The notes beneath the pieces were generated by a model that saw nothing but the letters and a program-made list of their open reading frames with translations, had not been told where the DNA came from and did no database searches. Made by a program: the position numbers and the translations under genes. Source: Vicinamibacteraceae bacterium (GTDB lineage Bacteria > Planctomycetota > Phycisphaerae > Phycisphaerales > UBA5793). Taken from it: a stretch of DNA of 35,122 bases. Below, in pieces: positions 18,456 through 33,477 of the stretch (its first letter is position 1; each line of letters begins with the position of its first letter). The stretch spans positions 1 through 35,122 of the forward strand of contig WYBR01000093.1 in the NCBI GenBank assembly GCA_011525805.1. The letters run 5' to 3'.

Positions 18456-18506
18456 ATGGATCAGCAATTGACAGCAACTGCCAGTGGGTCTTCAATGCCG
18501 TCGTGA
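18456..18506 (+). CDS. Possible 16-residue leader peptide
   Basis: ATG 18456 has GGAGA five bases upstream, a much better ribosome site than that of the HTH gene. The frame reads MDQQLTATASGSSMPS and its TGA overlaps the GTG start of the HTH gene as GTGA. It may couple translation of the HTH gene, or it may be the true N-terminus separated by a frameshift. Confidence 0.35.
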   Translation: MDQQLTATASGSSMPS

Positions 18507-18760
18507 CTGCCCCTCGCCAGAGATCGCGTAGCGCTCGAGTTCCGACGGAGGTGCACGGCGGCAACCTTGTCCCTGCCAACGCAGTGTTCACGATTGATGA
18601 TCTTGTCGTCTACCTGAAGGTCCCGAAGTCCACGGTCTACAAGCTTGCGCAAGAGGGCAAGATACCCGGTCAGAAGGTCGGTCGGCACTGGCGCTTCCAT
18701 CGCTCAGTCATCGATCGGTGGTTGGGAGACAATGTCGACGGCCATCGCAGTGCGCGTTGA
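18503..18760 (+). CDS. Excisionase-type helix-turn-helix protein
   Basis: An 85-residue protein from GTG 18503. The last 50 residues are a clear HTH_17/excisionase domain: FTIDDLVVYLKVPKSTVYKL, then AQEGKIPGQKVGRHWRF, then HRSVIDRWLG. Domains of this type bind DNA as winged helices in excisionases and in small regulators. It stands 30 bases before the ATPase gene on the same strand, so it could be the transcriptional regulator of the defence operon. Alternatively it is the excision factor of the island, though no integrase is near. The frame is open upstream to 18062, but that part is arginine- and proline-rich noise over the hairpin region. Start uncertain; the HTH call is firm. Confidence 0.75.
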   Translation: MTAPRQRSRSARVPTEVHGGNLVPANAVFTIDDLVVYLKVPKSTVYKLAQEGKIPGQKVGRHWRFHRSVIDRWLGDNVDGHRSAR

Positions 18761-18790
18761 AGTCGCTCGGTTCGATGTAGAGGAGGATCG

Positions 18791-21505
18791 ATGCTTGGCC
18801 TGAACCTCAGAGAAGAGTTCAAAGGGCGCCGGCTCAAGGGCACGGCGATCGAGCTGACGAACAAGAACAACACCGGCGCGACACAGATCCCTGCTGGCGA
18901 CTTTCTGCGCATCACGTATCCGAGCAGTGATGTACTCAAGATGCTCGAAGCGGCTGGGCCGGAGAGGGGGCAACCGATTGTCCTGAAGGGTGAGCGCGGC
19001 CAGGGCAAGTCCCATCTCATGGCCGTGCTATACCACTGCTTGACGGATCATGCAGCAGCGCAGGCTTGGCTCAACTATTGGGCCGACCTCCTCGACGATC
19101 CGAAGATTACAAACATTCCGCTGCGCGGTGGCATGCACGTCATCCGCGAGAGCCTGCACCAGCAGCACTATAAATTCCTGTGGGACGTCCTTTTCGACAA
19201 CCATCCGCACGGCAGGTACTGCAAGGGCAAGTGGGAAGCCCTCGGCGAAAGCAGAACAGACGTACCCAGCGACACGCTCGTTCTTGATATGCTGTCGCAT
19301 ACACCAACCGCGCTAGTTCTCGATGAGTTCCAGACGTGGTTTGACGGTGTCACCAACACGAAGCAGTATCCGTGGCGCACCTGGGCGTTCAACTTCATCC
19401 AGATCCTCTCGGAAATCGCCAAGGAGCATCCGGACAAACTCGTGCTCGTTGCTTCCGTGCGCAACGGCTCGACCGATGCTTTCCAGCAGATCCAGCGCGT
19501 CAACCCCGTGATCGTCGACTTTGCCGGTCCGAGCGCCAAGAGAGATCGATGCCGGCTCCTTCTACACCGCCTGTTCGAGAATCGACTTCAAGTGTCCCGA
19601 TCCGCGATCGAGTCACTGCTCGACACGCACATTAGGGAGCACTGCAGGCTACGGAACACGCCGCCCGCCGAGCAGGAACGGATCCGCAATGAGTTCATCG
19701 ACGCTTGGCCCTTCGCCAGCCATTTGATGCAGTTGCTGGAGGATCAGGTGCTGATCGCGACCAGCGCTCAGGGCACTCGAGATTTGATTCGTGTTCTCGC
19801 CGACTTGTTCAAGCAGGCTGGCGAGACGATGCCTGTCATCACGGCAGCAGACTTCAGACTGGACGACGAGAAGAGCGGGATCGCTGCACTGCTCGACTCC
19901 GTAGCCAACCAGCATCATGCAAAACTGCGCGAGAAGGCCCTTCGCAACCTTGAAGCTGTGCGCGACGCGGTTCCAGACACCGCCAAGCGCCTCCCGCGGT
20001 TGGAGCAGATCATCGGTGCGCTTTGGCTTCGTTCGCTCGCCGACATCAATCAGGCGGGTGCCGATCACGCCACGCTGCACGTGGACGTGACGCGAGACAA
20101 GCCCGTCGACGACAATGCCTTTCTGGTCGAGCTCACAACAATCGTCGAGAACAGCTTTAATATCCACGAAGACGGCAATCGCTACATCTTCAGAGAAGAG
20201 GAGAATCCTCAGGCGAAGTTGATCGCGAGCGCTCGCAACGACAAATTGTTCCTGGAGGAGCAGGATCTCGCCCATCTCGCCCGCGAGGTGCGCTACGTCA
20301 TCGGTGGTGGACAGGACACGGCAACGCGGTTCCGCGTCATTGTATTGCCGCAGGCGTGGAATCGTGATCCGTGGGACAGCGTGGAAGAACCCGACCAGCC
20401 CGCGCAATGGGATGATCGTATTCCGATTCTGATCCTGCCCGAGTCCCCGACGAAGGTCGACGCTGCCTTGGGGCGTTGGCTCAGGGACAATTTGCAGCGG
20501 AATCGGAACGCCGTTCGCTTCCTGATCCCGCAGGATGGCAGCACCAACCTGTTCCTTGACCGCGATCTCGTGATTCTCGCCCGCTGCGTGTTTCTCGCGG
20601 AGCAGTGGAAAGCGCAGAATCCCGAGTATGGACGCCTCCAGTCGAAGTACCAGAAGGAGTTGCGAGAGATCTTAAAGGCTCGATTCGACCGCTTCGCCGT
20701 CATCGCCAACTGGAATTTCCAGCAGCCGGAGAACTGTCGGTTCCACGTCGAATCCCACCGCTCGCAGGGAACCGTCATTCCCGAGGCAATCGACAAACTG
20801 GTCAACGAGAACCTCTTCATCCCGGAAGACTTCGAAGAGTTCATCCTTGCTGCGGCGGCCAGCAATGAGCCGATCGGCAAACTTCTCCGCGAGTTGAAGG
20901 AGCCGCGCCCCGGTGGCCAAGACTGCATTCCGTGGCTGGGTGAGACTCTCGTCAAGGAGCGGATCATTCGGCTCTGCACCAAGGGTCAGATCGCCATCAA
21001 TCTCCGCGGAATGGAGTACCTCCAGTCACGTGATGGCGAAACGGAGGATGCTGCGTGGAGGCGGATGCGTGGGAAACTCGGGACAGGGAAACATCTCGAT
21101 GAAACCTACGTCCTGCTCCCTCAGAATGTGCCCGGCACTGGCGGTGTCTCCGGCGGAGCGGGTGGAGCCGGTGGCGAAGGTGGACCGGGCCCAGGAGGTG
21201 GGATGACGACGAATGGCGGCGCGAGTGGCGGATCGACGACCGGCGGCGATGGCAAGGCTGGAGGCGAACAGACAAACGGAGGCCTCTTCGGGGCCGGCAC
21301 GCGGGTGCCGATCAATTTCCCCGCCACCTCGGCGCTCAACCTGCTTGGCCGAATCGAATCTCATGGGATCAAGGCTGGTACTCAACTCCACAATCTCGAT
21401 CTTAAGGTGAATAGGCTGACCGGCGCCCAGCTCCATGAGTTGATCAGAAAACTCCCTGACGGCATGACCTACGAGCTTGGCATGGAAACGGAGCAGCCGG
21501 GATGA
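18791..21505 (+). CDS. DUF499 P-loop ATPase (BrxC/PglY-like)
   Basis: A 904-residue cytoplasmic ATPase, first large gene of the defence operon, with GAGGAGG just before its ATG. Walker A is GERGQGKS at residues 67-74 and Walker B is ALVLDEF at 174-180. The surrounding sequence (FLRITYPSSDVLKML before, HLMAVLYHCL after) has the DUF499 look. BrxC and PglY of BREX systems are related large ATPases. Residues about 777-835 are an almost pure Gly/Ser/Thr/Ala linker, followed by a 55-residue C-terminal domain (LNLLGRIESHGIKAGT, then LHNLDLKVNRLTGAQ) that may be a docking module. Its stop overlaps the next start (ATGA), so stoichiometry is probably coupled. It likely assembles with the methylase and PglZ-like protein. 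Confidence 0.82.
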   Translation: MLGLNLREEFKGRRLKGTAIELTNKNNTGATQIPAGDFLRITYPSSDVLKMLEAAGPERGQPIVLKGERGQGKSHLMAVLYHCLTDHAAAQAWLNYWADLLDDPKITNIPLRGGMHVIRESLHQQHYKFLWDVLFDNHPHGRYCKGKWEALGESRTDVPSDTLVLDMLSHTPTALVLDEFQTWFDGVTNTKQYPWRTWAFNFIQILSEIAKEHPDKLVLVASVRNGSTDAFQQIQRVNPVIVDFAGPSAKRDRCRLLLHRLFENRLQVSRSAIESLLDTHIREHCRLRNTPPAEQERIRNEFIDAWPFASHLMQLLEDQVLIATSAQGTRDLIRVLADLFKQAGETMPVITAADFRLDDEKSGIAALLDSVANQHHAKLREKALRNLEAVRDAVPDTAKRLPRLEQIIGALWLRSLADINQAGADHATLHVDVTRDKPVDDNAFLVELTTIVENSFNIHEDGNRYIFREEENPQAKLIASARNDKLFLEEQDLAHLAREVRYVIGGGQDTATRFRVIVLPQAWNRDPWDSVEEPDQPAQWDDRIPILILPESPTKVDAALGRWLRDNLQRNRNAVRFLIPQDGSTNLFLDRDLVILARCVFLAEQWKAQNPEYGRLQSKYQKELREILKARFDRFAVIANWNFQQPENCRFHVESHRSQGTVIPEAIDKLVNENLFIPEDFEEFILAAAASNEPIGKLLRELKEPRPGGQDCIPWLGETLVKERIIRLCTKGQIAINLRGMEYLQSRDGETEDAAWRRMRGKLGTGKHLDETYVLLPQNVPGTGGVSGGAGGAGGEGGPGPGGGMTTNGGASGGSTTGGDGKAGGEQTNGGLFGAGTRVPINFPATSALNLLGRIESHGIKAGTQLHNLDLKVNRLTGAQLHELIRKLPDGMTYELGMETEQPG

Positions 21506-22509
21506 CGCTGACTTGCGACCAGCTTCGGCGTCTCCAGTCCGAGGAGCCCGAGACCGCCTGGGCCACGATTTTTGCCCACGCTTGGGATGTGTGCTCCGCT
21601 CCGTTTGGGAGCGCCAAGCCGGACTCAGAGGTAGTTCGACGAGACCGCGAACTCGCGGATGTCGACCTGTTCCTCGCGACTGCTGGCTGGGATCTCTGGG
21701 AGCATTATGAATCGGCCGTTCCCAGAACTTCGGAGGTGCTCGCCAACTGGTGGACCTCGCGCAGCCATGCTCGTGCCGTGCTGATCCTCGACGCTCTATC
21801 CCTGCGCGAGGTCCCTTGGATTCTCGCCGGAGCGGCTGAACGCGGCTACACGATCCGTGATGCCCGCACCACCGGCGCTGAGCTGCCACCTGACACGACA
21901 CCCTTCGCAAAGGCGCTCGGCTTTGGCCAGCGATCCTCGCTCGGCGCCAACGCTGCCGGCGCGGCACACCGGCTTCCGGGGGCTCGGACCGAATGCACGG
22001 ATATTGCGTGGGAGGACTGCGCCCAGTTCATCGGCTCCGAGTCTGATTGGGTCTTCTGGCACCAATGGCCGGACAAGGATGTGCATGACTTCGCGGATGC
22101 CGGTGAGGGCCTGCGTCCCCTCATCGCCAAGGCGTCCGAGCACCTCCAGAGTGATGCCTTTTGGAACCTCGTCGGTCGCCTCGCCGAGGGCAGGCGGCTG
22201 GTGATCACTTCGGATCATGGCTACGCCGCAAGCGAGCAGTTCCCGGATGCCGGTTCAGATCATGCGGGGTATCTCAAGCAGGTCTTCCGAAGCGGGCGGT
22301 GCGCAGATGCCGCTTCGCAGCGGGGAGCGTGGGTGCCCCCCATTGACCTTCTGCTCGAAACACAGCACGGTAAGCACCTCTTCGTGAATGGTCGCCGCAA
22401 GTGGAGAAGCGCCGGCGGCTATCCCACACTGACGCACGGCGGACTTTCAGTTCTCGAGGTGGCTTCCCCCTTCATCGAACTCTCCGGAAGACAGACGGGA
22501 ACCGAATGA
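21502..22509 (+). CDS. Compact PglZ-like protein
   Basis: A 335-residue protein of the alkaline phosphatase-like PglZ type. Residues 92-106 read AVLILDALSLREVPW, the metal/nucleophile strand with D97. LVITSDHGYA at 233-242 gives the Asp-His-Gly metal-binding motif. YPTLTHGGLSVLEVASPF at 307-324 gives the C-terminal THGG motif typical of PglZ. PglZ proteins of BREX usually have about 650-900 residues; this one keeps the catalytic core but lacks the large N-terminal region. It overlaps both neighbours by ATGA junctions. In BREX, PglZ is needed for defence and binds the methylase and ATPase; its enzymatic activity is not settled. The family call rests on motifs and operon context. Confidence 0.75.
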   Translation: MTLTCDQLRRLQSEEPETAWATIFAHAWDVCSAPFGSAKPDSEVVRRDRELADVDLFLATAGWDLWEHYESAVPRTSEVLANWWTSRSHARAVLILDALSLREVPWILAGAAERGYTIRDARTTGAELPPDTTPFAKALGFGQRSSLGANAAGAAHRLPGARTECTDIAWEDCAQFIGSESDWVFWHQWPDKDVHDFADAGEGLRPLIAKASEHLQSDAFWNLVGRLAEGRRLVITSDHGYAASEQFPDAGSDHAGYLKQVFRSGRCADAASQRGAWVPPIDLLLETQHGKHLFVNGRRKWRSAGGYPTLTHGGLSVLEVASPFIELSGRQTGTE

Positions 22510-25500
22510 CTCAGATCGGCACGAAGTCTAAGTCGAAATCGAAGTCCCAGCCCTGGAAGGATGAGGGCATCACGAAAGCCGAATGGGTGGCACGCGAGGT
22601 CGCCAGGGCCGTGAACGCGGGCAAAGCCTGGGACTTGGAGACCGTCGACTTCTCCGATCCCAACCGCCCCCTCACTTGCCTGGAGGTGGACTTCCCGATC
22701 ATCCCCATCAACCAGATCGCGGCCATTGAAGGCAACGCCGGCAAACCCATTTACCAGATGTCGAAGTGGTGGGCACGCCGTCGCAGCAGCGTATTCCGCT
22801 CGATGCTGCTCGCCGCCGCCATCAAGGCTCCAGATGACCCCGCCGAGGCCGCCAAACTCGTGTGGGATGTCTACTACGGCAACCACCAGAAGAAGGGCAC
22901 CTTCAAGCACCTCAAGGTCGCCGACATCTTCATGGGTGGTGGCACAACCGTCGTCGAGGGCTCGCGCCTCGGCATGCAGATGTACGGCAACGACCTCAAC
23001 CCCGTCGCGTGGTTCGTCGTCAAAAACGAACTGGCACAGGTGGACAAGGCCGAGGTCGAGGCCCTGCTCGCCGACATCGAGGCCGAGGTCAAGCCGCAGA
23101 TCATGCCCTTCTACGCCTGCGACTGTCCGCGTGGGCACAGAGGCAAGTGGACACAGATCAGCACAAACACCGTGATGGGCAGCGACTTCGACCCGCTCAC
23201 GCTCTCGCCGGAGCAGCGGAAGGACTACCGCTACGAAGGCCCCGAAGTCATCTACACCTTCTGGGCCAAGCACGGGCCCTGCCCCGTGACCGGGTGCGGC
23301 CACCGCACACCGATCATGTCCAGCCCCGTGATGGCGGTGAAGTCGATTTCCATAAAGGCGTGGAAGCGCACCTGCAGGTACTGCGGCGAGAAGTACGACA
23401 TCGAGGAGCGCGACGCCCGCATGGCGCCCGGCGTTGAACTCGTGGTCGCGGACACGGAGCACCCCTATGCCGTCGCCGCGCTCAACATGGCGGGCAACCC
23501 GGAGACGGTCACCTGCCCGCACTGCGGCAAGGAGGAGCGGCTCGGGAAGCTCGCCAAACCGGGCAAGAAGGCGATCGAGTTGTCGTTGCTTGTTCATCCC
23601 GACTGGCTTAAGGGCGAACCAGCCCAAGACGGGAAAGGGCGGCCCTATGGCGGCAGCGCCGATGACGCCGTGGACGCCACCGCGCGATGGAACCAGGCAC
23701 GCGCTGCCACCTGCGATCTGGTCGAGATCCGCGGTGAGCTACCGGATGAAGTAACGCTCGCCGACGGCACCCGCATCAAGACGGGCAAGGAGGGCGGCAC
23801 CGTTGGGGGCAAGAGCGCATTTACATGCCAGGAGGAAACCTGCGGGCAGACGCACGACGTCCGTGAAGCCATCGCCGAGACGGGAACGAACGGCCCAATC
23901 GCTATGTACGCAATCCAAGGCTTCTGTCCGGCGTGCAATGGCAATAGCGACGCATACAACGGTCGCTTCTTCGTGCCGGTGCGAGACACTCGTGCCTACG
24001 ACGCGTGTCTTCAGGAATGGGAGACGAGGAGAGCAACCGACCTCGCGGGCTTCTGGCCCACCAATGAAGTGCCGTTCGGCTTCATGACAGCAATGGCCAA
24101 CGGTGACATCCGGCAGGCGCACGGGTTCACCCACTGGTGGAAGATGTTCAATGCGCGACAGCTCATGGTCAACGCGGCGCTACTTCGTGCTATCTCCGAG
24201 TCTTCGTCTGGCGTTGCAGGCGAATTCGTGCTTGGTGCCTTTCAGACATTCATCCGCAACAACTGCCTGATGGCGTTCTGGCACAAGGCTCGCGATCACT
24301 TCGCGCCGGCGCTATCCAACAGCAACTATCATCCAAAGGACGGCAGCATCGAAGTCGGTGCGTTCTCCAATGTGGGGTACGGTCCGTGGCCGTCCACTCT
24401 GGGGAACTTACTGGACGCACTTGACTGGCTAGCTGATCCGTATGAGACCGTGCAGAACGCCAGGCTTGCTGCCACTTCCCCACACTTGTCCGAGTTCCTC
24501 AGTGGAATGAGCGAGAAGGCGAGATGCAGGGATCCCCTATGTCACAGCGAGTCGATCGCGTGCCTCTCCTCGTCCGAGCGGCTGACTTGTGGCACATCCA
24601 CCGAGCTCGAGACCATCCCTGACGGCTCCTACGACGCGGTCGTCACCGATCCACCGTTCGGCGGCTTGCTGCACTACTCCGAACTGGCGGACTTCTTCTA
24701 CGTCTGGCTGCGGCTTGTGCTCAAGGACAAATACCCCGAGTACTTCTCGGCGGAGTACACGCCCAAGACGATGGAGGCGGTCGCCAACCGGGCTCGACAC
24801 CCCGGCGATGACGAGGAAACCGGGCGCAGCAACGCCGATGTCTTCTACCAGCGGTTGCTCACCGCCTGCTGGCAGGAGGCCAAGCGCATCCTCAAGCCCG
24901 CCGGCGTCCTCGCGTTCACGTTCCACCACAAGGAGGACGAGCCGTGGGTATCGGTGCTGGAGTCGCTGTTCGATGCTGGCTTCTTCCTTGAGGCCACCTA
25001 CCCGATCCGCGGCGATGAGACCAAGGGTGAGGGCCAGTTCGGCTCCAAAGCGATCGAGTTCGACATAATCCATGTCTGTCGCCAGCGGACCGAGGAGCCC
25101 AAGCCGATCTCGTGGGCGAAGCTGCGGCGCCAGGTGCTTCAGGATGTGCGCGACATTCAGGACCTGCTGGAGCACCATCAGGAGGAAGGCTTGCCCGAGG
25201 CGGATCTCCAGGTCATCCGTCGCGGCAAGGCGCTGGAGTATTTCTCGCGGCACTACGGGCAGGTGTTCAAGGGACCGGACACGCCGATGACGGTCCTCGA
25301 AGCGCTGCTGGGTATCAATCAGTTGCTCGACGAGGAAGCGGGCGGCATTAAGGAGCCGCCTCCGCACAACGCCGAGCCATTCACACGCATGCTGCTGCGC
25401 CTGTTCGACGGCAAGGCCGAGTTGCCGCGCGACCAGATCCAGAAGTTCCTGCGCGGCACGGGCAGCGCGCCATCTGACTTTGAGAGCCGCGGCTGGGTAA

Positions 25501-25847
25501 CGGAGAAGAAGAAGGTGTTCTACCTTGTGCCGCCGCTCGAATTGGCGCAGCGGTGGGTCGGCAAGCAGCGCAAGGGCATGACCAGCGACTACGACCAGGC
25601 GATGTATTTCATCGGCGCGTGCTTCGAGAACAGCGGGATCAATGCCAGCGAAACGCTGAACAACCCCAACTTCCGGCCACACCCCGCGCTGGGGGCGATC
25701 CTCAGTTGGTTCAAAACGCACGGCGCCGACTCGCCGACACGCAACGCTGCGGTCATCGCAGCGCAGCTCTATCGCACCTGGGCCGCGAAGCATCAGGAGA
25801 AGGAGCGCGAACTCATGCTCTTTGAAGATCTCGGGGAGGAGGACTGA
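22506..25847 (+). CDS. DUF1156 adenine-specific DNA methylase with zinc ribbons (PglXI-like)
   Basis: A 1113-residue methyltransferase starting in the previous stop (ATGA). The DUF1156 start is plain: INQIAAIEGNAGKPIYQMSK, then WWARRRSSVFRSMLLAA. Motif I is DIFMGGGT at residues 140-147 (S-adenosylmethionine binding) and the catalytic motif IV is DPPF at 715-718. Between them lie four zinc-ribbon pairs (CDCPRGH, CRYCGEKY, CPHCGKEE, CPACNGN). COG1743-type methylases with DUF1156 replace PglX in type 3 BREX. It would modify adenines to mark self DNA and might also take part in restriction. The stop shares a base with the next ATG. Confidence 0.88.
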   Translation: MTQIGTKSKSKSKSQPWKDEGITKAEWVAREVARAVNAGKAWDLETVDFSDPNRPLTCLEVDFPIIPINQIAAIEGNAGKPIYQMSKWWARRRSSVFRSMLLAAAIKAPDDPAEAAKLVWDVYYGNHQKKGTFKHLKVADIFMGGGTTVVEGSRLGMQMYGNDLNPVAWFVVKNELAQVDKAEVEALLADIEAEVKPQIMPFYACDCPRGHRGKWTQISTNTVMGSDFDPLTLSPEQRKDYRYEGPEVIYTFWAKHGPCPVTGCGHRTPIMSSPVMAVKSISIKAWKRTCRYCGEKYDIEERDARMAPGVELVVADTEHPYAVAALNMAGNPETVTCPHCGKEERLGKLAKPGKKAIELSLLVHPDWLKGEPAQDGKGRPYGGSADDAVDATARWNQARAATCDLVEIRGELPDEVTLADGTRIKTGKEGGTVGGKSAFTCQEETCGQTHDVREAIAETGTNGPIAMYAIQGFCPACNGNSDAYNGRFFVPVRDTRAYDACLQEWETRRATDLAGFWPTNEVPFGFMTAMANGDIRQAHGFTHWWKMFNARQLMVNAALLRAISESSSGVAGEFVLGAFQTFIRNNCLMAFWHKARDHFAPALSNSNYHPKDGSIEVGAFSNVGYGPWPSTLGNLLDALDWLADPYETVQNARLAATSPHLSEFLSGMSEKARCRDPLCHSESIACLSSSERLTCGTSTELETIPDGSYDAVVTDPPFGGLLHYSELADFFYVWLRLVLKDKYPEYFSAEYTPKTMEAVANRARHPGDDEETGRSNADVFYQRLLTACWQEAKRILKPAGVLAFTFHHKEDEPWVSVLESLFDAGFFLEATYPIRGDETKGEGQFGSKAIEFDIIHVCRQRTEEPKPISWAKLRRQVLQDVRDIQDLLEHHQEEGLPEADLQVIRRGKALEYFSRHYGQVFKGPDTPMTVLEALLGINQLLDEEAGGIKEPPPHNAEPFTRMLLRLFDGKAELPRDQIQKFLRGTGSAPSDFESRGWVTEKKKVFYLVPPLELAQRWVGKQRKGMTSDYDQAMYFIGACFENSGINASETLNNPNFRPHPALGAILSWFKTHGADSPTRNAAVIAAQLYRTWAAKHQEKERELMLFEDLGEED

Positions 25848-26368
25848 TGGTCCGTACCCGGTTCAACCAGGGCTGGTCTCGGCGCGGGTGTTCTCTCCTG
25901 TGGGACGCCGAGACGCTTGCCGAGATCGTCGATCCAATGGATGTCGTCTCGATGCGCGGGATGTTCGCGATGGTGGACGCGTGGCCGGACGACCTCCCTG
26001 CTGCGGGAGGGGACGCCGTCGTCGTGGCCGGCGTGGAGGGCTGCATCGATGTGCTGAGCGGCCTCGACGCGGAGCGATGGCTCGTTGAGGATCTGAGTCG
26101 CGCGATCATGTCGTTTCAGGAGCACTACGAGGGCGCTGCCGGGCTCGTTTTCTGGCTCCCCTCCGGGCGCAGCCGGGTTTTCATGCGCGGCGCCAGCGAA
26201 GAGTACTACCTCCGGCATCGCGGCTCGGGCGAGCAGGGACTTCACATCGGGCGCTTCCTGTGGTCTGGGGCCGAAAACGAGATCGAGCGGATCATGAACA
26301 CCGACGACCATGGGGCGGACTACGACGGAAAGCACTGGGTGGGTCTGTACCACCCGAGGATCAGTTGA
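25847..26368 (+). CDS. Unknown 173-residue protein of the defence operon
   Basis: Starts in a TGATG junction after a strong GGGGAGGAGG site and ends overlapping or just before the helicase start, so it is clearly part of the operon. No Walker motif, zinc site or membrane segment is seen. A strand-helix pattern AVVVAGVEGCIDVLSGL near residues 56-72 and a helical run WLVEDLSRAIMSFQEHYEG near 78-96 are followed by LVFWLPSGRSRVFMR, suggesting an alpha/beta fold. BrxF of type 3 BREX has a similar length, but it is a P-loop ATPase and this is not. DUF3780, which accompanies DUF499 and DUF1156 in some loci, is another possibility that I cannot confirm. Confidence 0.7.
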   Translation: MVRTRFNQGWSRRGCSLLWDAETLAEIVDPMDVVSMRGMFAMVDAWPDDLPAAGGDAVVVAGVEGCIDVLSGLDAERWLVEDLSRAIMSFQEHYEGAAGLVFWLPSGRSRVFMRGASEEYYLRHRGSGEQGLHIGRFLWSGAENEIERIMNTDDHGADYDGKHWVGLYHPRIS

Positions 26369-26370
26369 AC

Positions 26371-29157
26371 GTGACGCAGGTCGGTTTCAAACCCGGAGAG
26401 CGCGTCGCCCACGTCAACTTTGGCGAAGGGATCGTGGTCGGGATCGGCTCCGACGGTTACCTGCGCGTGTTCTTCCCTTCCGGCGAGCGCCGGGTCAACG
26501 CGGCCACCGTGGCCCCCGCGCGGAGCCGGATTGATCGCATTCTCGAAAATGTCGCAGGCGGCGATGATCGACTGCGCCGGGCATGGCTGCACGTCGAAGC
26601 CCACGCTCTCCCGCTCATGGAGAATGCCGCCGCGCTTACTGCCGCGCGGATTGACCTGCTCCCGCACCAGGTCGTGCTGACGCATCGGATCGCCACCGCG
26701 ACGCCACGGCGCTTTCTGATCGCCGATGAAGTCGGTCTCGGGAAGACGATCGAAACCGCGCTGGTTCTGCGAGAACTTGCCAGCCGCGGGGAACTCAGTC
26801 GTGCATTGATGATCGTTCCTGCTGGCCTGGTGAACAACTGGCACCGAGAGTTGAATGAAGTGTTCAACCTGAACTTCGAGGTGTTCGGGAGTTCCGGCGA
26901 CGTGACTGACCGACGGTCGAACGCGTTTGCCAAGCACGATCGGCTCATCGCCAGCGTGGACACACTGAAGCGCCGCAACCGCGTGCGACGGATTCTCGAA
27001 GCGCCGAAGTGGGATCTCGTGGTCTTTGATGAAGCGCATCACCTGTCCGCGTACAAGAGCGGTGGAAAGATCCGCAAGACGGAAAACTACAAGCTGGCGG
27101 AGGCGATGCGCGATCACGCTCGCGATCTGCTTTTGCTCTCTGCGACGCCGCACCAAGGCGATCACTTCCGTTTCTGGATGCTTATCCAGTTGCTCAACCC
27201 GACGCTGTTCGCGGATGCTGACGAAATGGTGGAGGAGCGGCACCGACTCAACAGCGTTGTGTTCCGCCGCACCAAAGCGGACGCATGCACGCCTGATGGC
27301 TCACCACTGTTCGCCCGGCGCTGGGTACACACTGAGTCTTTCACGATGTCGGACGGCGAGCGGGCGTTCTACGCAAGGCTCCGCGAGTATCTGCAGGACG
27401 GCTTTGATCTCGCGAAACAACAGGGGAACGAAGGTCGCGCGCTCGGCTTCGTGATGACGATCTTTCAGAAGATCGCTGCGTCAAGTTTCGCGGCGGTCCA
27501 GAGCACGCTCCGGCGCCGCCAACTCATGCTGACGATTCACGAGGCCATCCTGAAGGATCAAGCGCTCGACATCGACGGCCATCGCCGACTCCTCGACGAC
27601 GCCCGTCGCCTCATTCATCGAGAGAGACGGCTTCCGGACGACACGGCTGGACGTGGAGAAGTGGATCGCATTCTTGCCGATCTGAAGATGCGGCTCATCC
27701 GCAAACTCGACCTCGACCAGCTGGCGATGGCCGCTTCGTCGGAGAGCGGGGAAGCGACGACGGCGCAAGGCGAGGATCTTGCAGCAGTCTGCGTGGCCCT
27801 CTCGCTGCCCGAGGAGCGGATGCGGATCGAAGAGGTGTTGTCGGCGTGTCCATCCGCGCGAGAGACGAAGGTTGAGAAGCTATTGCGGGGCCTCGGTGCG
27901 CTCTGGGAGCAGAACCCCGATGAGAAAGTGGTGATCTTCGCAACCTACCTGGCCACCGTTGACCTGCTTTCGAGGGAAATAGAGGCTTCCTACCCGGGGC
28001 AGGGTGTCGTCGTGCTGCGCGGAGGCGACCACGGCGCCAAGCTGGCAGCGGAAAAACGCTTTCGCCGGCCGGACGGCCCGCGCGTACTGGTCTGTACGGC
28101 CGCCGGGCGCGAAGGGATCAATCTTCAGTTCTCTCGGGTGCTGTTCAACTTCGACCTGCCGTGGAACCCGATGGATGTGGAGCAGAGGATCGGACGCATC
28201 CACCGGTACGGGCAGAAGGACACCGCGCAGGTCTACAACCTCGTACTCTCAGACACCATTGAGGGAAAGATCTTTCTGCTGCTCACCGACAAGCTGCTCG
28301 AGATCGCCCGAGCACTGGGCAAGGTCGATGAGCATGGTAACGTCACAGAGGATCTCAAGGCGCAAATCCTCGGCCAGCTGTCCGACCGACTCAGCTACGA
28401 TCAGTTGTATCGCGATGCGCTGTCCGACCCAGAGCTGAAGCGGACGCGGGAAGAACTCGAGGCTGCGATCTCGAACGCGAACGAGGCCAGAAAGGTCGTA
28501 TTCGAACTCTTTCAGGATCTCGACCGGTTCAGCTTGGACGACTACAAGCCGTTCGCCGACATCGATGCCGGCAAGACGCGGATCGAGGCTTTCATGAGCG
28601 CATCCCTCGCGGCGGATGGCGCACGGTTGGTTCCTGACAAGGATGGGTGTCTCCGGATCGAAGTGCCGGATGCGGACAATCCCGCAAGATTCACCTTTGA
28701 TCGTGATAGGGTCCAGGCTGACGAGCGGCTGGAACTCTTGGGGTTGGACCATCCACTCGTGTCGGAGATGCTTCGGAGGTGGAAGTTACAGCCCCCCGAG
28801 CAGCTCGGGGTCGCGGTGGACGGCGCCTCCGCGCTCCCTCGCGGGATTCTCACCGTCTGGTCGGTCGAATCATTCGGCAAGGCGACTGAGTTCACATCGC
28901 ACGTGGTAAATATTGCCGTGGACTCAGCCGGACAGCGTCTACCAGCAATGGAGAAGCGTTTCGCCGAGGTCTTCTCGTCTGCCCGCGCGCAGTCAAGACT
29001 AAGCGTGGAGGACCGCAGACGCCTATTCGAGAGTGCTATTGAACCTGCGCTCCAACGCGAGCTGGGTCACCGTGGGCTGGCCGGCGCTTCAGGCGGGCAC
29101 TCGGCGGAGTTGCTCGCGTGGGTGGAGGTTGTAGCTGAGAGAGGCGGTCGGGAGTGA
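26371..29157 (+). CDS. SNF2-family DEAH helicase (BrxHII/DrmD-like)
   Basis: A 928-residue superfamily 2 helicase. It starts at GTG 26371, with GAGGA at 26356-26360; TTG 26365 is an alternative that overlaps the previous stop. Residues about 3-40 form a small Tudor/KOW-like domain (FKPGERVAHVNFGEGIVV). Walker A is EVGLGKT near 120-127, DEAH at 220-223, SATP at 257-260, and motif VI QRIGRIHRYGQ at 605-615. This spacing and the NFDLPWNPMDVEQRIGRIHR motif are typical of SNF2 enzymes in BREX type 3 (BrxHII) and DISARM (DrmD). DrmA and DrmB are absent here, so BREX is the better comparison. It would translocate on double-stranded DNA, perhaps to act on unmodified phage DNA. Confidence 0.88.
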   Translation: MTQVGFKPGERVAHVNFGEGIVVGIGSDGYLRVFFPSGERRVNAATVAPARSRIDRILENVAGGDDRLRRAWLHVEAHALPLMENAAALTAARIDLLPHQVVLTHRIATATPRRFLIADEVGLGKTIETALVLRELASRGELSRALMIVPAGLVNNWHRELNEVFNLNFEVFGSSGDVTDRRSNAFAKHDRLIASVDTLKRRNRVRRILEAPKWDLVVFDEAHHLSAYKSGGKIRKTENYKLAEAMRDHARDLLLLSATPHQGDHFRFWMLIQLLNPTLFADADEMVEERHRLNSVVFRRTKADACTPDGSPLFARRWVHTESFTMSDGERAFYARLREYLQDGFDLAKQQGNEGRALGFVMTIFQKIAASSFAAVQSTLRRRQLMLTIHEAILKDQALDIDGHRRLLDDARRLIHRERRLPDDTAGRGEVDRILADLKMRLIRKLDLDQLAMAASSESGEATTAQGEDLAAVCVALSLPEERMRIEEVLSACPSARETKVEKLLRGLGALWEQNPDEKVVIFATYLATVDLLSREIEASYPGQGVVVLRGGDHGAKLAAEKRFRRPDGPRVLVCTAAGREGINLQFSRVLFNFDLPWNPMDVEQRIGRIHRYGQKDTAQVYNLVLSDTIEGKIFLLLTDKLLEIARALGKVDEHGNVTEDLKAQILGQLSDRLSYDQLYRDALSDPELKRTREELEAAISNANEARKVVFELFQDLDRFSLDDYKPFADIDAGKTRIEAFMSASLAADGARLVPDKDGCLRIEVPDADNPARFTFDRDRVQADERLELLGLDHPLVSEMLRRWKLQPPEQLGVAVDGASALPRGILTVWSVESFGKATEFTSHVVNIAVDSAGQRLPAMEKRFAEVFSSARAQSRLSVEDRRRLFESAIEPALQRELGHRGLAGASGGHSAELLAWVEVVAERGGRE

Positions 29158-29334: not shown

Positions 29335-29631
29335 ATGGATGTCCGGTTTGCCGACGAGCAGCTGGGACGATTGGAATCCGACCCCGCCTTCAACGGGGGG
29401 TTTGGGCAGGATGTGGTGCGCGGTTTTCGCAAGGTCATGCAGGTCATCCGGGCGGCCGTGGACGAGCGCGATTTCTATGCGATGAAGTCGTTGCACTTTG
29501 AAAAGCTGCGAGGCAATCGGAGTCACCAGCACTCGATGCGGCTGAACAGGCAGTGGAGGTTGGTCATTGAACTGGAGCGTACCCCGAGCGGCAAGGCAGT
29601 CGTTGTCATCTCTGTTGAGGATTACCACTGA
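29335..29631 (+). CDS. higB: HigB/RelE-superfamily toxin
   Basis: A 98-residue toxin predicted to be a ribosome-dependent mRNA endonuclease. The pattern SLHFEKLRGNRSHQHSMRL then NRQWRLVIELE and the end VVVISVEDYH matches HigB/GraT proteins, where the KL-x-G loop, the final Arg of NRQWR and the C-terminal YH are conserved. The length is right for the family. Toxin-before-antitoxin order is the higBA arrangement. It follows the palindromic operator and is 66 bases upstream of the antitoxin. Its position directly after a defence operon is common for such pairs. Confidence 0.88.
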   Translation: MDVRFADEQLGRLESDPAFNGGFGQDVVRGFRKVMQVIRAAVDERDFYAMKSLHFEKLRGNRSHQHSMRLNRQWRLVIELERTPSGKAVVVISVEDYH

Positions 29632-29652
29632 AGTGAAAGTATTGGAATCGGC

Positions 29653-29688
29653 CCACCGGATAACAGGTGGCGGAGCCCCGCAAGGGGC
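29653..29688 (+). promoter_or_regulatory. Two short hairpins directly before the antitoxin ribosome site
   Basis: CCACC at 29653-29657 pairs with GGTGG at 29666-29670, and GCCCC at 29675-29679 pairs with GGGGC at 29684-29688 around a GCAA tetraloop. The second hairpin ends one base before the GGGAG ribosome site at 29689-29693, so it could set the translation ratio of toxin to antitoxin. No T-run follows, so it is not a terminator. Confidence 0.4.
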
Positions 29689-29697
29689 GGGAGCAGC

Positions 29698-30870
29698 ATG
29701 ATGGCCATCGAACCAAATATGCGCGCGGGTCCGGCGGACGCGTTTGCCCCGGGCGAGTTCATCCGCGACGAGTTGGAGGCTCGCGGCTGGGAGCAGCGCG
29801 ATCTTGCTGACATTATGGGCCGCCCGGAGCGGACGGTCAGCGAGCTCATTGCGGGCAAGCGGGCGATCACGCCTGAGACGGCACAGCAGCTGGGTGAGGC
29901 GTTCGGCACAACCGCTCAGTTCTGGATGAACATGGAATCAGCATACCGGCTTCACCGACTTGGGAAGCCCAACGAAACTGTCGCCCGCCGCGCTCGGCTG
30001 TACTCGATCGCGCCTGTCAAGGAGATGATCCGCCGCGGCTGGATCATGGAATCAGCGAGTGTGGATGTTCTGGAGGAGCAGATCAAGCAGTTTTTCCGGG
30101 TGCCTTCGCTCGAAGAGGCCCCCTCCGTGTGCGCCGCGGCGGCGCGAAAGGCTACGGGTAACGACACACATTACTCCGAGTTCACGCCGGCGCAGAGAGC
30201 TTGGCTTTGTCGCTCTCGGCAGCTCGCTGAGACGCTGAAGGTGGCCAAATTCGACCTAGCCAAGTTCAGAGCGCATCTCCCTGCGGTCAAGAACCTGCTC
30301 ACCAATGCAGAAGATGTGCGGCAGGTTCCAAAGCTCATGGCAGAGTTCGGCGTGCGCTGCGTTGTGGTCGAGCATCTCCCCCAAACGAGAATCGACGGCG
30401 CCTGTTTTTGGCTAGATTCGAAGAGCCCGGTTGTGGCACTTTCGATGCGCTTCGATCGCATCGACTGGTTCTGGTTCACGTTGATGCATGAACTAGGCCA
30501 CATCGATGCTGGCGACGGCCGCTACGAGCCCATTCCGCCGGACATCGATCTCGTCGGAATGGACAGTAGCCAGACACCGGACAAGCCTGCCTTCGAAAGG
30601 GCTGCAGACTCCTTCGCGTCTTCGTTCCTAATCCCGGACGCCCAGCTGTCAAACTTCATTGCTCGCGTCCGTCCGCTGTACTCGAAGAAGAAAATCGAAG
30701 GATTTGCAGCCGTGCAGCAAATCCATCCGGGGTTGGTTGTCGGGCAATTGCAGTACCGCAAGGAGATTTCCTATGCCAATCTCCGAGCCTACCTCGTGAA
30801 GGTTCGCGCCCACTTGTTGGAGACGGTGCTGTCCGACGGATGGGGAGTCACGCCGCCAACCGGAAAGTGA
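29698..30870 (+). CDS. higA: HigA antitoxin fused to ImmA/IrrE metallopeptidase domain
   Basis: A 390-residue two-domain protein. Residues about 17-80 are a HigA/XRE helix-turn-helix (PGEFIRDELEARGWEQRDLA, then MGRPERTVSELIAGKR) with the typical TAQFWMNMESAYRLHR end. Residues about 225-345 are an ImmA/IrrE peptidase with HELGH at 264-268 and the third ligand Glu300 in FERAADSFASSF. The HTH would repress the operon through the palindrome and neutralise HigB. The peptidase part could cleave the antitoxin itself or another repressor under stress. Plain HigA proteins have about 100 residues; the fusion form is a known but less usual class. The adjacent ATG at 29701 is an alternative start. Confidence 0.88.
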   Translation: MMAIEPNMRAGPADAFAPGEFIRDELEARGWEQRDLADIMGRPERTVSELIAGKRAITPETAQQLGEAFGTTAQFWMNMESAYRLHRLGKPNETVARRARLYSIAPVKEMIRRGWIMESASVDVLEEQIKQFFRVPSLEEAPSVCAAAARKATGNDTHYSEFTPAQRAWLCRSRQLAETLKVAKFDLAKFRAHLPAVKNLLTNAEDVRQVPKLMAEFGVRCVVVEHLPQTRIDGACFWLDSKSPVVALSMRFDRIDWFWFTLMHELGHIDAGDGRYEPIPPDIDLVGMDSSQTPDKPAFERAADSFASSFLIPDAQLSNFIARVRPLYSKKKIEGFAAVQQIHPGLVVGQLQYRKEISYANLRAYLVKVRAHLLETVLSDGWGVTPPTGK

Positions 30871-30889: not shown

Positions 30890-31357
30890 ATGCAGAAGTC
30901 CCGGTATAACGAGCAGATGCAGCAGCTTGTCGTCGAGTATCAGAAGGCTGGCCAGCCTTGGCCGGCAACGACGCGGGACATGGCCGCGTGGATGGTCCGT
31001 ACCGGAAAGTGGCAACCATCGCGCGAACTCGCGATCGAGCAGTGTGCCGACGACCTCGCCCGGGCCATGCGTGAGGAATTCATTACCGACCGTCAGGGGC
31101 GGCGCGTTCGGGCAAAGCACGCGGCGCGGCGCGAAGTGAACGGCGAGCAGCAGACCTTTTGGGCTGATCTCCGGACAGCACCGCGCGAGCATATGGAGAT
31201 CGCATTCTCCCAGCGCCGGCAACAGATCGTCAGCGACTGCGCCCAGCTGAAGCGCGATGTTGACTGCTACAACGAGAACTTCAACGAAGGCACTGCTATC
31301 CAGATGGTCTTCGACTTCACCATGGATCTCGAAGAACTCGAAGCGGCCTACGCCTGA
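30890..31357 (+). CDS. Conserved protein of unknown function, 155 residues
   Basis: Starts 19 bases after the HigA stop with a GGAAAGAG site in between. It is a charged, mainly helical protein without signal or membrane segment. The stretch TTRDMAAWMVRTGKWQPS near residues 27-44 is followed by helices with EQCADDLARAMREE, a basic patch RRVRAKHAARRE, and the end MVFDFTMDLEELEAAYA. The DMAAWM...GKW pattern with the basic patch suggests a helical nucleic-acid-related domain. I have the impression of a widespread family beside HigA-type genes, but cannot name it. It probably belongs to the same operon as higBA. Confidence 0.65.
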   Translation: MQKSRYNEQMQQLVVEYQKAGQPWPATTRDMAAWMVRTGKWQPSRELAIEQCADDLARAMREEFITDRQGRRVRAKHAARREVNGEQQTFWADLRTAPREHMEIAFSQRRQQIVSDCAQLKRDVDCYNENFNEGTAIQMVFDFTMDLEELEAAYA

Positions 31358-31421
31358 CGGCCGCGCCGCGCTCCATGAGCGCAGAATGATCCGTTTCAGA
31401 CAGGGGAAGGAGCCCGAACGG

Positions 31422-32594
31422 ATGCCACAGTACTCGCCGAAGAGAATTATCCGGAACATCTCAAAAAACCTGCTTCAGCGCTATTTCGAGAGCCGCGGCC
31501 TTCTCGGCGACTTCGAGTGGGACGAGTACGAGGATGGTGATCCGACGGAGATCATCGAGGCACTGGATTCGTTGAAGCCGAGTGAGCAGGAATCCGTGGA
31601 CACGGACCTGATGACCATCAACGAACTTGCCTCGGAGGGAGGATCGAAGCTCATCTACGAGGACGCGGCATTGTGGAAGCGGCCTTGGGCGGCTCAACTC
31701 GACGGCATGGCGAACGATTGCGAGCGGGCATTGCTCGCGCTCATCGAGGACCGGAAACTCGTGGAGCGGGTGCTGGGATACCAGGAGATTGACCGGTTTG
31801 CGGAGAGCCGGTGGCGACGGTGGAACGTCGGGAAGCGCCTCCAGGTCGAGGATGACGAGAACCATCGCGGGAGGCTTGCCAAGGCGCTCCGCGCCATTCT
31901 CAAAGACCAGGGACGCGGGAGACGGTGTCACGTAGAAACCTTTGAGCGCCGCGATCCCGACCGGTTCTGCTGCTTCGCCTATCCGGAGAACCACCCGAAA
32001 ACCGACCTCGGCTACGACGACCAGGATCGGTTCATCCGTCACGCGCGACGAACGGCTGGTGAGGTCATTTTCGTCTACCGGCGCGAGGAAGGCATCTTGG
32101 AGATGGTGGCGGCAGGCGACAGGCAGCACAAGGACAGGGTTTCCGAGGCCTTCTGCAAGGAGATGCTCGGGCTGAAGGCACTGCCCGATCCACGGTCCAA
32201 ACCGCCCTACGACCTGTCAGCATTGAAGAGCGGGCATTTTGCTTTCAAGACTGACCCTGGCGACCACATTGCAGGAGTCGAAATCCGGCTGCTCCGGTTC
32301 GATCTTCCGGGAAAGGGGTATCGTCGGATCGTGCTTTCGGGCCGGCCAACACCCGATATGCCGGATCTGCTTCGGTCGCTAGTGGACGAGGCCATAGACA
32401 AATCAAAGTTGCCGTTCTCGGAACTCCATGTGTCCCAGGCGCGTCTTTCGTTCAAGTTTCGCAGGCAGAATGGCGGCCGCGGCAAGACGGTGACCTTCGA
32501 GATCACCTATCCGGATTCGTGCAACCTTAAGGACTTCGGCGACGACGCGGTCGCCAAGAGGTACCTCATCAAGTGGGGCATCGCCCGTGTCTGA
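31422..32594 (+). CDS. Unknown 390-residue protein
   Basis: The start at ATG 31422 is chosen because GGGGAAGGAG at 31403-31412 is an ideal ribosome site for it; ATG 31386 is weaker and an ATG at 31257 overlaps the preceding gene. The N-terminus (YSPKRIIRNISKNLLQRYF) is basic and helical, followed by an acidic segment (DEYEDGDPTEI). A middle domain near residues 150-240 holds several aromatic and charged residues (FCCFAYPENHPKTD, then GEVIFVYRREEGILEMV). The C-terminal third is beta-rich. No signal peptide, membrane helix or catalytic motif is recognised. The GTG of the next gene overlaps its end by eight bases, showing coupling. Confidence 0.65.
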   Translation: MPQYSPKRIIRNISKNLLQRYFESRGLLGDFEWDEYEDGDPTEIIEALDSLKPSEQESVDTDLMTINELASEGGSKLIYEDAALWKRPWAAQLDGMANDCERALLALIEDRKLVERVLGYQEIDRFAESRWRRWNVGKRLQVEDDENHRGRLAKALRAILKDQGRGRRCHVETFERRDPDRFCCFAYPENHPKTDLGYDDQDRFIRHARRTAGEVIFVYRREEGILEMVAAGDRQHKDRVSEAFCKEMLGLKALPDPRSKPPYDLSALKSGHFAFKTDPGDHIAGVEIRLLRFDLPGKGYRRIVLSGRPTPDMPDLLRSLVDEAIDKSKLPFSELHVSQARLSFKFRRQNGGRGKTVTFEITYPDSCNLKDFGDDAVAKRYLIKWGIARV

Positions 32595-33477
32595 TCCATT
32601 GGCCGAACTTCTGATTCGAGTTGAGTACCTGCGCGATGGTGTGCTGACACCACAGGATGCGCGGGCATGGCCGCGCGAGTGGCTCGCGTCGATCGAAACG
32701 ACGGGGATTCTCGACCCGCATGCGCAGGCAGAGGAGATCATCTACGACGGGTGCGACCATGAGTGCGCAGTGCCGAACCTCGGATTCGAAGCACACCCAG
32801 ATGATCCGGAACGGTTGGTCTCTGTCCATCGGTGCCTGCATGGCTGCGGAGTCGTGTTTCTGGAACCCCGCGACTTCGAGCAGTGGCGATTCAGTCTGGT
32901 TGGTCTGGCTCGGTCCGTGGCCGCCGCGATCGGCGCATCCGGTGTCATCGTTGAAGATGTGCCGGGCCGTGTCGTGCTGGTCGGCACGGCCAATGTCGGT
33001 GGGCAGGCCAGTGAGGTGTTCCTCGGCTTCGGATTGGCGCGTTCGGATTCGGCAGTCATCATCGCGACCGCCCAGCGGCTTCGGGCCTCGGAGCGTCCGG
33101 TGGTGCTTTCCGTCGGAGTGAAGCCCGGCGACATCTGGTCGCTTGGAACTCGACCGCGGACTGCTGTGCTCGCAGAACATGCTGTTCTGGAAGTCGGCTG
33201 CCTCAGCCTCGATCTGGCCCGCATCTTCCCGACACCGGGAATGATCGAAGTCAAGCCGAGCGATTGGCTCACCGTCACGGAAGCGGCTGAAATGCTGGTC
33301 GAAGATCTCTCGTGGCTGACCATCGAAAAGGCTAGAGCCAGGGTGTCAAAGGCCGCCGGCAATGAGGTGTTCAAGACCAACGGCCTCGAAGGAACACTGC
33401 GCAGAATCGAACGGCACTCGTTCAGCACGTGGCGCCTCGAACAGCGCAACAGAGATCTCGCGAAGGACGATTGGTAG
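32587..33477 (+). CDS. Unknown protein with Cys4 cluster and C-terminal HTH
   Basis: A 296-residue protein from GTG 32587, overlapping the previous gene by eight bases. Cys56-x3-Cys60 (CDHEC) and Cys83-x3-Cys87 (CLHGC) form a probable zinc site. The middle (residues about 95-215) is an alpha/beta region with VVLVGTANVGGQA and VVLSVGVKPGDIW. The last 70 residues are a helix-turn-helix of excisionase style: WLTVTEAAEMLVEDL, then IEKARARVSKAAGNEVFKTN, then HSFSTWRLEQRNRDLA. DNA-binding function of the end is a fair inference; the role of the front is unknown. It is the last gene before the tRNA fragment that marks the likely island edge. Confidence 0.7.
   Translation: MSDPLAELLIRVEYLRDGVLTPQDARAWPREWLASIETTGILDPHAQAEEIIYDGCDHECAVPNLGFEAHPDDPERLVSVHRCLHGCGVVFLEPRDFEQWRFSLVGLARSVAAAIGASGVIVEDVPGRVVLVGTANVGGQASEVFLGFGLARSDSAVIIATAQRLRASERPVVLSVGVKPGDIWSLGTRPRTAVLAEHAVLEVGCLSLDLARIFPTPGMIEVKPSDWLTVTEAAEMLVEDLSWLTIEKARARVSKAAGNEVFKTNGLEGTLRRIERHSFSTWRLEQRNRDLAKDDW

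Follow-up and report, generated by a model that had tools for sequence, protein, structure and literature searches.

The stretch of DNA analysed here (the window: 35,122 nucleotides, contig WYBR01000093.1 of GCA_011525805.1, a Phycisphaerales assembly deposited as Vicinamibacteraceae bacterium) contains at 18584-29157 a single tight operon of six genes, all on the + strand, which we assign with a probability of about 0.85 to the Type-3 BREX-Related (Type-3 BR) systems, a kind that has already been published. These relatives of BREX (bacteriophage exclusion) were named in January 2026 by Rakesh & Krishnan (NAR 2026; PMC12839542), who described a set consisting of a DUF499 ATPase, an N6-methyltransferase, a BrxHII-like helicase without a nuclease, a standalone active PglZ and a fast-evolving BrxB-like inactive STAND domain protein (iSTAND); the set is restated in PMC13326643. 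Four of the defining features are found in the window, i.e., a DUF499-type ATPase distinct from BrxC, a DUF1156 methyltransferase with two four-cysteine fingers, a nuclease-less BrxHII-like helicase and an intact standalone PglZ; a protein of 173 residues is the candidate for the small, fast-evolving, P-loop-like component. Comparison with the published description revealed nothing contradictory, although the window family's candidate iSTAND is only weakly linked to BrxB. The initial annotation, made from the letters of the window and their translations, had suggested an undescribed subtype; this does not hold, since the gene set, short PglZ included, fits the named Type-3 BR. Its account of a tightly coupled run of six genes stands, as all of them are present in the order it gave and overlap by 1-4 bases from the ATPase to the helicase (junctions of -4, -4, -1 and -4 bases).

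ATPase, methyltransferase and helicase

In the ATPase both nucleotide-binding motifs are intact (Walker A, GERGQGKS, at 67; Walker B, ALVLDE, at 174), and a Gly-rich linker precedes the C-terminal domain; an RRM-like C-terminal domain is reported for Type-3 BR ATPases (PMC12839542). The protein itself falls below the threshold of the DUF499 model and its own Pfam match is only AAA_16, so its DUF499 label is taken from its siblings, because 9 of 15 aligned relatives match PF04465 (best 8.5e-11) and NCBI annotates relatives as DUF499. Weak matches to HmaC (1.6e-4) and BrxC (5e-4) were also obtained. In the ATPase tree the PglZ-linked proteins group together (support 95) and split off both from BrxC and from the remaining DUF499 proteins, a separation also reported in PMC12839542. 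Within this group the ATPases of the window type make up a compact clade, which a long stem (1.91) sets off from the deeper PglZ-linked loci found in the phylum and in Halorubrum.

The methyltransferase bears motif I (FMGGGTT at 142) and motif IV (DPPF at 715). Its zinc-ribbon cysteines, C259/C264/C290/C293 and C337/C340/C441/C446, are invariant in 15/15 methyltransferases, while an extra pair (C474/C477) is variable; a subset of Type-3 BR methyltransferases with two 4-Cys fingers is described in PMC12839542. The best PADLOC match was HmaB (3.3e-37); PglXI (2.6e-21), the NCBIfam model NF042963 (1.1e-23) and, weakly, mad2 were matched too, and the DUF1156 model scored 23.3 bits against a cut-off of 24. 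The helicase matched BrxH over residues 96-892 of 930 (4.5e-98), DrmD (2.6e-91) and also HmaA. It carries the motifs GLGKT (124), DEAH (222) and QRIGRIHRYGQ (607), and the Pfam search found only SNF2 and helicase domains in it, with no nuclease domain. The earlier view of the operon as a BREX relative sharing parts with DUF499/DUF1156 loci is right.

The protein encoded upstream of the ATPase belongs to the excisionase family (HTH_17, 2.3e-15; TIGR01764, 1.5e-14) and is the probable regulator of the operon. An HTH gene lies 5' of the ATPase gene in part of the relatives.

Several other named systems share components with the operon. Type-1 BR, i.e., Hma (HmaA/HmaB/HmaC), has counterparts of the methyltransferase (HmaB), the helicase (HmaA) and, weakly, the ATPase (HmaC). 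However, in Hma a PD-(D/E)XK nuclease is usually part of the helicase and both PglZ and an iSTAND are lacking, whereas the window helicase has no nuclease domain and PglZ is present; Type-1 BR was thus rejected. So was Type-2 BR, which is marked by a DUF3780 gene and a helicase with an HKD nuclease, as neither domain occurs in any of the six proteins. For MADS, the mad1-like HTH protein remained under the curated cut-off (65.9 bits against 80 for MAD1) and no other mad gene fits well. The helicase resembles DrmD, but the neighbouring genes match no other DISARM component, and ARMADA requires a YprA helicase, which is absent here.

The short PglZ, the 173-residue protein and a proposed mechanism

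The 335-residue PglZ, searched alone, had no Pfam match, and it gave a weak match (0.015) to the BREX-3 PglZ model. A profile built from its family, in turn, found the solved BREX PglZ (6.7e-7) and PorX (3.7e-5). Its AlphaFold model, although of only moderate confidence (mean pLDDT 69.6), can be superposed both on PorX (Z 15.0, 285 residues) and on residues 380-762 of the Acinetobacter BREX PglZ (Z 11.3, 284 residues). The next fold in the list was autotaxin (4.7), a member of the same superfamily. PorX, a response regulator of the type 9 secretion system (T9SS), shares with the window protein this fold and the DHG and HGG(I/L)S motifs, but it carries a receiver domain and acts in signalling, while the window PglZ is standalone. 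In an alignment of 14 sequences, reaching down to 24% identity, D97, S100, R102, E103, D191, D238-H239-G240, H312-G313-G314 and E319 are invariant. The protein is therefore short but, as judged from alignment and model, not degenerate, and its catalytic domain is complete. The initial annotation had called PglZ reduced, which is right as to length, since the N-terminal and C-terminal domains of the Type-1 BREX PglZ are missing, and not right as to the catalytic domain.

The window PglZ starts at about residue 380 of the Type-1 protein. The Type-1 PglZ is a metal-dependent nuclease. In Type-1 BREX, BrxB, BrxC and PglZ form a complex, BrxB stimulates BrxC, and residues 1-98 of the Acinetobacter PglZ were co-crystallised with BrxB (PMC13326643). 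The window PglZ has the same core but, because of its late start, lacks this BrxB-binding segment. An iSTAND, if acting here, must therefore contact PglZ differently or work via the ATPase.

The candidate for this role is the 173-residue protein, which almost all complete relatives of the window clade retain in the operon. Plasmid-derived rows were kept out of the structure-prediction input. The AF2 model of the 173-residue protein is confident (pLDDT 90). Nearly all of the top VIA-aligned rows for this model were of the RecA, Rad51, Dmc1 and KaiC type or their ATPase-dead paralogues, with Z of 4.0-4.8, so that the model suggests, at a weak level, a P-loop NTPase-like arrangement. There is no Walker A motif in the protein; Type-3 BR iSTANDs are described as having no Walker motifs and a three-stranded insert after strand 4 (PMC12839542). 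A Foldseek search with the model returned nothing under E 0.001 and BrxB was absent from its list, a result which excludes nothing. We also compared the protein, by hhalign, with a profile of five BrxB proteins of the window's phylum, using 150 column-shuffled controls. Residues 52-104 were aligned with a weak score that was above 150/150 of the shuffles. In the same test set the BrxB and BrxF profiles, although published as homologues, did not find each other, and sequence alone thus cannot decide the identity of the 173-residue protein. We consider it likely to be the BrxB-like iSTAND of the literature, and the earlier statement that the operon has no BrxB is probably wrong.

Deeper PglZ-linked loci have a small protein of 142 residues in the same place before the helicase (L025, 14979-15404; L027, 6397-6822). 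Its score against the 173-residue protein was 21.9, with a shuffled maximum of 21.2, i.e., a weak likeness.

Gene set, gene order, recurrence, fold and the intact catalytic motifs of the ATPase, methyltransferase, helicase and PglZ were established directly. Complex formation, self-marking, the use of PglZ as the effector and phage restriction would be carried over by analogy from BREX. Very probably the operon uses methylation to label the DNA of its cell as self and turns the small PglZ on incoming DNA that lacks the label. In such a scheme the DUF1156 methyltransferase would recognise a target motif with the insert that bears the zinc ribbons and methylate the host copies (probably at N6 of adenine), while the DUF499 ATPase, the iSTAND and PglZ would scan incoming DNA or assemble on it. 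At unmethylated sites, and with the help of the SNF2 translocase, the complex may activate PglZ, a putative metal-dependent phosphodiesterase or nuclease, which would then nick or degrade the invader or block its replication; the HTH protein would control expression of the operon.

Among natural systems based on PglZ, Type-3 BR is the leanest: it has five proteins, its core shows no nuclease besides PglZ, and this PglZ is trimmed to the catalytic domain. It would allow a direct test of PglZ as effector, and of iSTAND switching without the N-terminal BrxB-binding region. The value of the operon is somewhat higher as a lean model of PglZ action than as a discovery.

Recurrence and alternative readings

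The order ATPase-PglZ-methyltransferase-small protein-helicase was found in about 20 loci that belong to several phyla and lie on chromosomes and plasmids as well as on IMG/VR contigs; this excludes a chance arrangement, and it is the kind of recurrence that the initial annotation had proposed to look for. PglZ relatives in this order occur in MAGs (metagenome-assembled genomes) of Phycisphaerales (80% identity) and Schekmanbacteria, in Halomonas, on plasmids of Ca. Tenderia, Aminobacter, Ensifer, Klebsiella and other Enterobacterales, in genomes of the window's phylum and on IMG/VR contigs. With the window's own genome left aside, the operon occurred in 0/60 relatives. Across the phylum, matches were obtained in 11 of 392 genomes, the window's own included; L028, counted among them, resembles BREX type 3. 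Such a patchy spread, together with the conjugative plasmids, is as expected of a mobile defence module.

In some relatives the operon also holds extra genes, in a recurrent cargo slot. About 34 plasmids of Klebsiella, Enterobacter, Citrobacter and Raoultella, most of them conjugative, carry a relative of the operon, whose PglZ is 52% identical. In the three plasmid loci examined closely (L007, 7884-20447; L107 and L108, 5691-18714), SIR2 and HerA-like genes lie between PglZ and the methyltransferase; E. coli chromosomes carry a 75% identical SIR2-HerA pair without the rest of the operon. Copies of this kind on conjugative Klebsiella plasmids mean that the system circulates in clinical bacteria as a possible phage barrier. 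In the annotation of pK518_KPC the ATPase gene is too short, lacking the N-terminal 213 residues, and blaKPC-2 is located some 4 kb upstream. Two loci (L020, 13066-14244; L042, 8686-9933) have, between the methyltransferase and the small protein, a membrane-anchored GHSLGG lipase-like protein, possibly an extra effector. An AAA15/OLD-like ATPase lies within the operon in differing places (L021, 9250-10383; L023, 2157-3940, the latter with a 199-residue partner). The domain names of the cargo (lipase-like, AAA15-like) and the name HerA were read from the sequences and are not database matches. On the Halorubrum plasmid pHLAC01 (L043, 6369-12866), DUF499, PglZ, methyltransferase and a 132-residue protein follow in order, with no helicase directly after. 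The upstream excisionase-type HTH protein (in part of the family) and the SIR2-HerA or lipase-like cargo go beyond the main text of PMC12839542. New details are this HTH protein, the in-operon cargo slot and a PglZ without the N-terminal region through which the Type-1 BREX protein binds BrxB.

Several points weigh against the Type-3 BR assignment. Its softest link is the weak identification of the 173-residue protein as an iSTAND: the family corresponds to no Pfam family and to no solved chain matched by sequence, the structural Z scores of its model stay below 5, and when the protein was tried as BrxF the similarity was no better than with shuffles. The PglZ-linked ATPase group joins two long branches, about which the tree program issued a warning, so that the union of the window and deep clades is not firm. 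In addition, the presence of the window clade in the data set of PMC12839542 is not proven, and the papers found describe no experiment on a Type-3 BR system.

A more novel reading would make the window clade a fourth lineage of the BR type: a closed set of ATPase, 173-residue protein and multi-ribbon methyltransferase would have gained PglZ separately, with the 173-residue protein replacing BrxB as the link between the ATPase and a PglZ devoid of the known BrxB-binding region. The five proteins would then form a minimal PglZ restriction machine, activated by a route of its own and provided with a slot for further effectors, e.g., SIR2-HerA. We regard this as rather unlikely. The proposal of a further BR subtype, marked by the 173-residue protein and the two-ribbon methyltransferase, whose lineage acquired PglZ and the small subunit in events separate from those behind the published Type-3 BR, is unlikely as well. 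The long stem of the window-type ATPases and the faint likeness of the 142-residue protein are what it would explain, but both groups of loci share the gene order, an alignable PglZ (30 invariant columns), a methyltransferase with the same cysteine pairs and the helicase, they stand together in the ATPase tree, and two-finger methyltransferases are already mentioned for Type-3 BR.

A non-defence operon for DNA modification or element maintenance, e.g., for the control of a plasmid or an integrated element, seems highly improbable. Several copies do reside on plasmids or IMG/VR contigs, and the excisionase-type HTH and the HigB/HigA pair found 3' in the window would suit such a role; however, the operon is also chromosomal and patchy, nearly every part of it is homologous to BREX, and some relatives carry SIR2-HerA, or an AAA15-like ATPase with its partner, which look like defence cargo.

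Canonical BREX type 3 after gene loss is already contradicted: it shares with the operon a BrxHII-type helicase, a PglXI-type methyltransferase, a BrxC-like ATPase and a PglZ (weakly matched by the BREX-3 model), but the window ATPase is of the DUF499 and not of the DUF6079/BrxC kind (there is no DUF6079 match in the window's genome and the tree separates them), PglZ is about half the size, the canonical BrxF copies examined have an intact P-loop, unlike the 173-residue protein, and neither BrxB, BrxL nor BrxF (model NF033453) was matched in the window's genome. Nor is the operon a decay product, because its gene set recurs intact. The earlier remark that no BrxA or BrxL is recognisable stands as worded, but BrxA (model PF08849) was matched neither in this genome nor in the control genomes, so that its search is uninformative.

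Gene coordinates and flanking genes

The positions of the six genes are collected in Table 1. The methyltransferase starts at the ATG at 22506 and not at the GTG at 22401, and the helicase is read from its TTG start. Thirty bases separate the end of the HTH gene from the ATPase gene; given a start of the HTH gene at the GTG, the region 18456-18583 is probably non-coding. In G+C content the five large genes (0.60-0.65) differ little from the window (0.636).

Table 1. Genes of the Type-3 BR-like operon, with positions in the window.
Feature	Position	Strand	Size and remarks	Basis
Excisionase/MerR-type HTH protein	18584..18760	+	58 aa from GTG 18584, start uncertain	HTH_17, TIGR01764
DUF499-type AAA+ ATPase	18791..21505	+	904 aa	Walker motifs, sibling PF04465 matches, tree
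Standalone short PglZ	21502..22509	+	335 aa, alkaline-phosphatase-superfamily metallo-phosphodiesterase (predicted)	Alignment, profile, AF2 model
DUF1156 DNA methyltransferase	22506..25847	+	1113 aa	HmaB, PglXI, NF042963 matches, motifs
173-aa protein, proposed BrxB-like inactive STAND/P-loop domain (iSTAND)	25847..26368	+		Operon co-conservation, AF2, hhalign
BrxHII/DrmD-type SNF2 helicase	26365..29157	+	930 aa, TTG start (26365)	BrxH, DrmD matches

An efflux operon lies upstream of the defence operon. On its 3' side, after 177 bases, a HigB-like toxin gene is followed by a gene for an HTH plus M78-peptidase protein (HigA/ImmA-like), the pair occupying 29335-30870. Three more unannotated open reading frames (155, about 409-445 and 296 residues), which have no Pfam match, follow at 30890-33477 and may be part of the same defence island.

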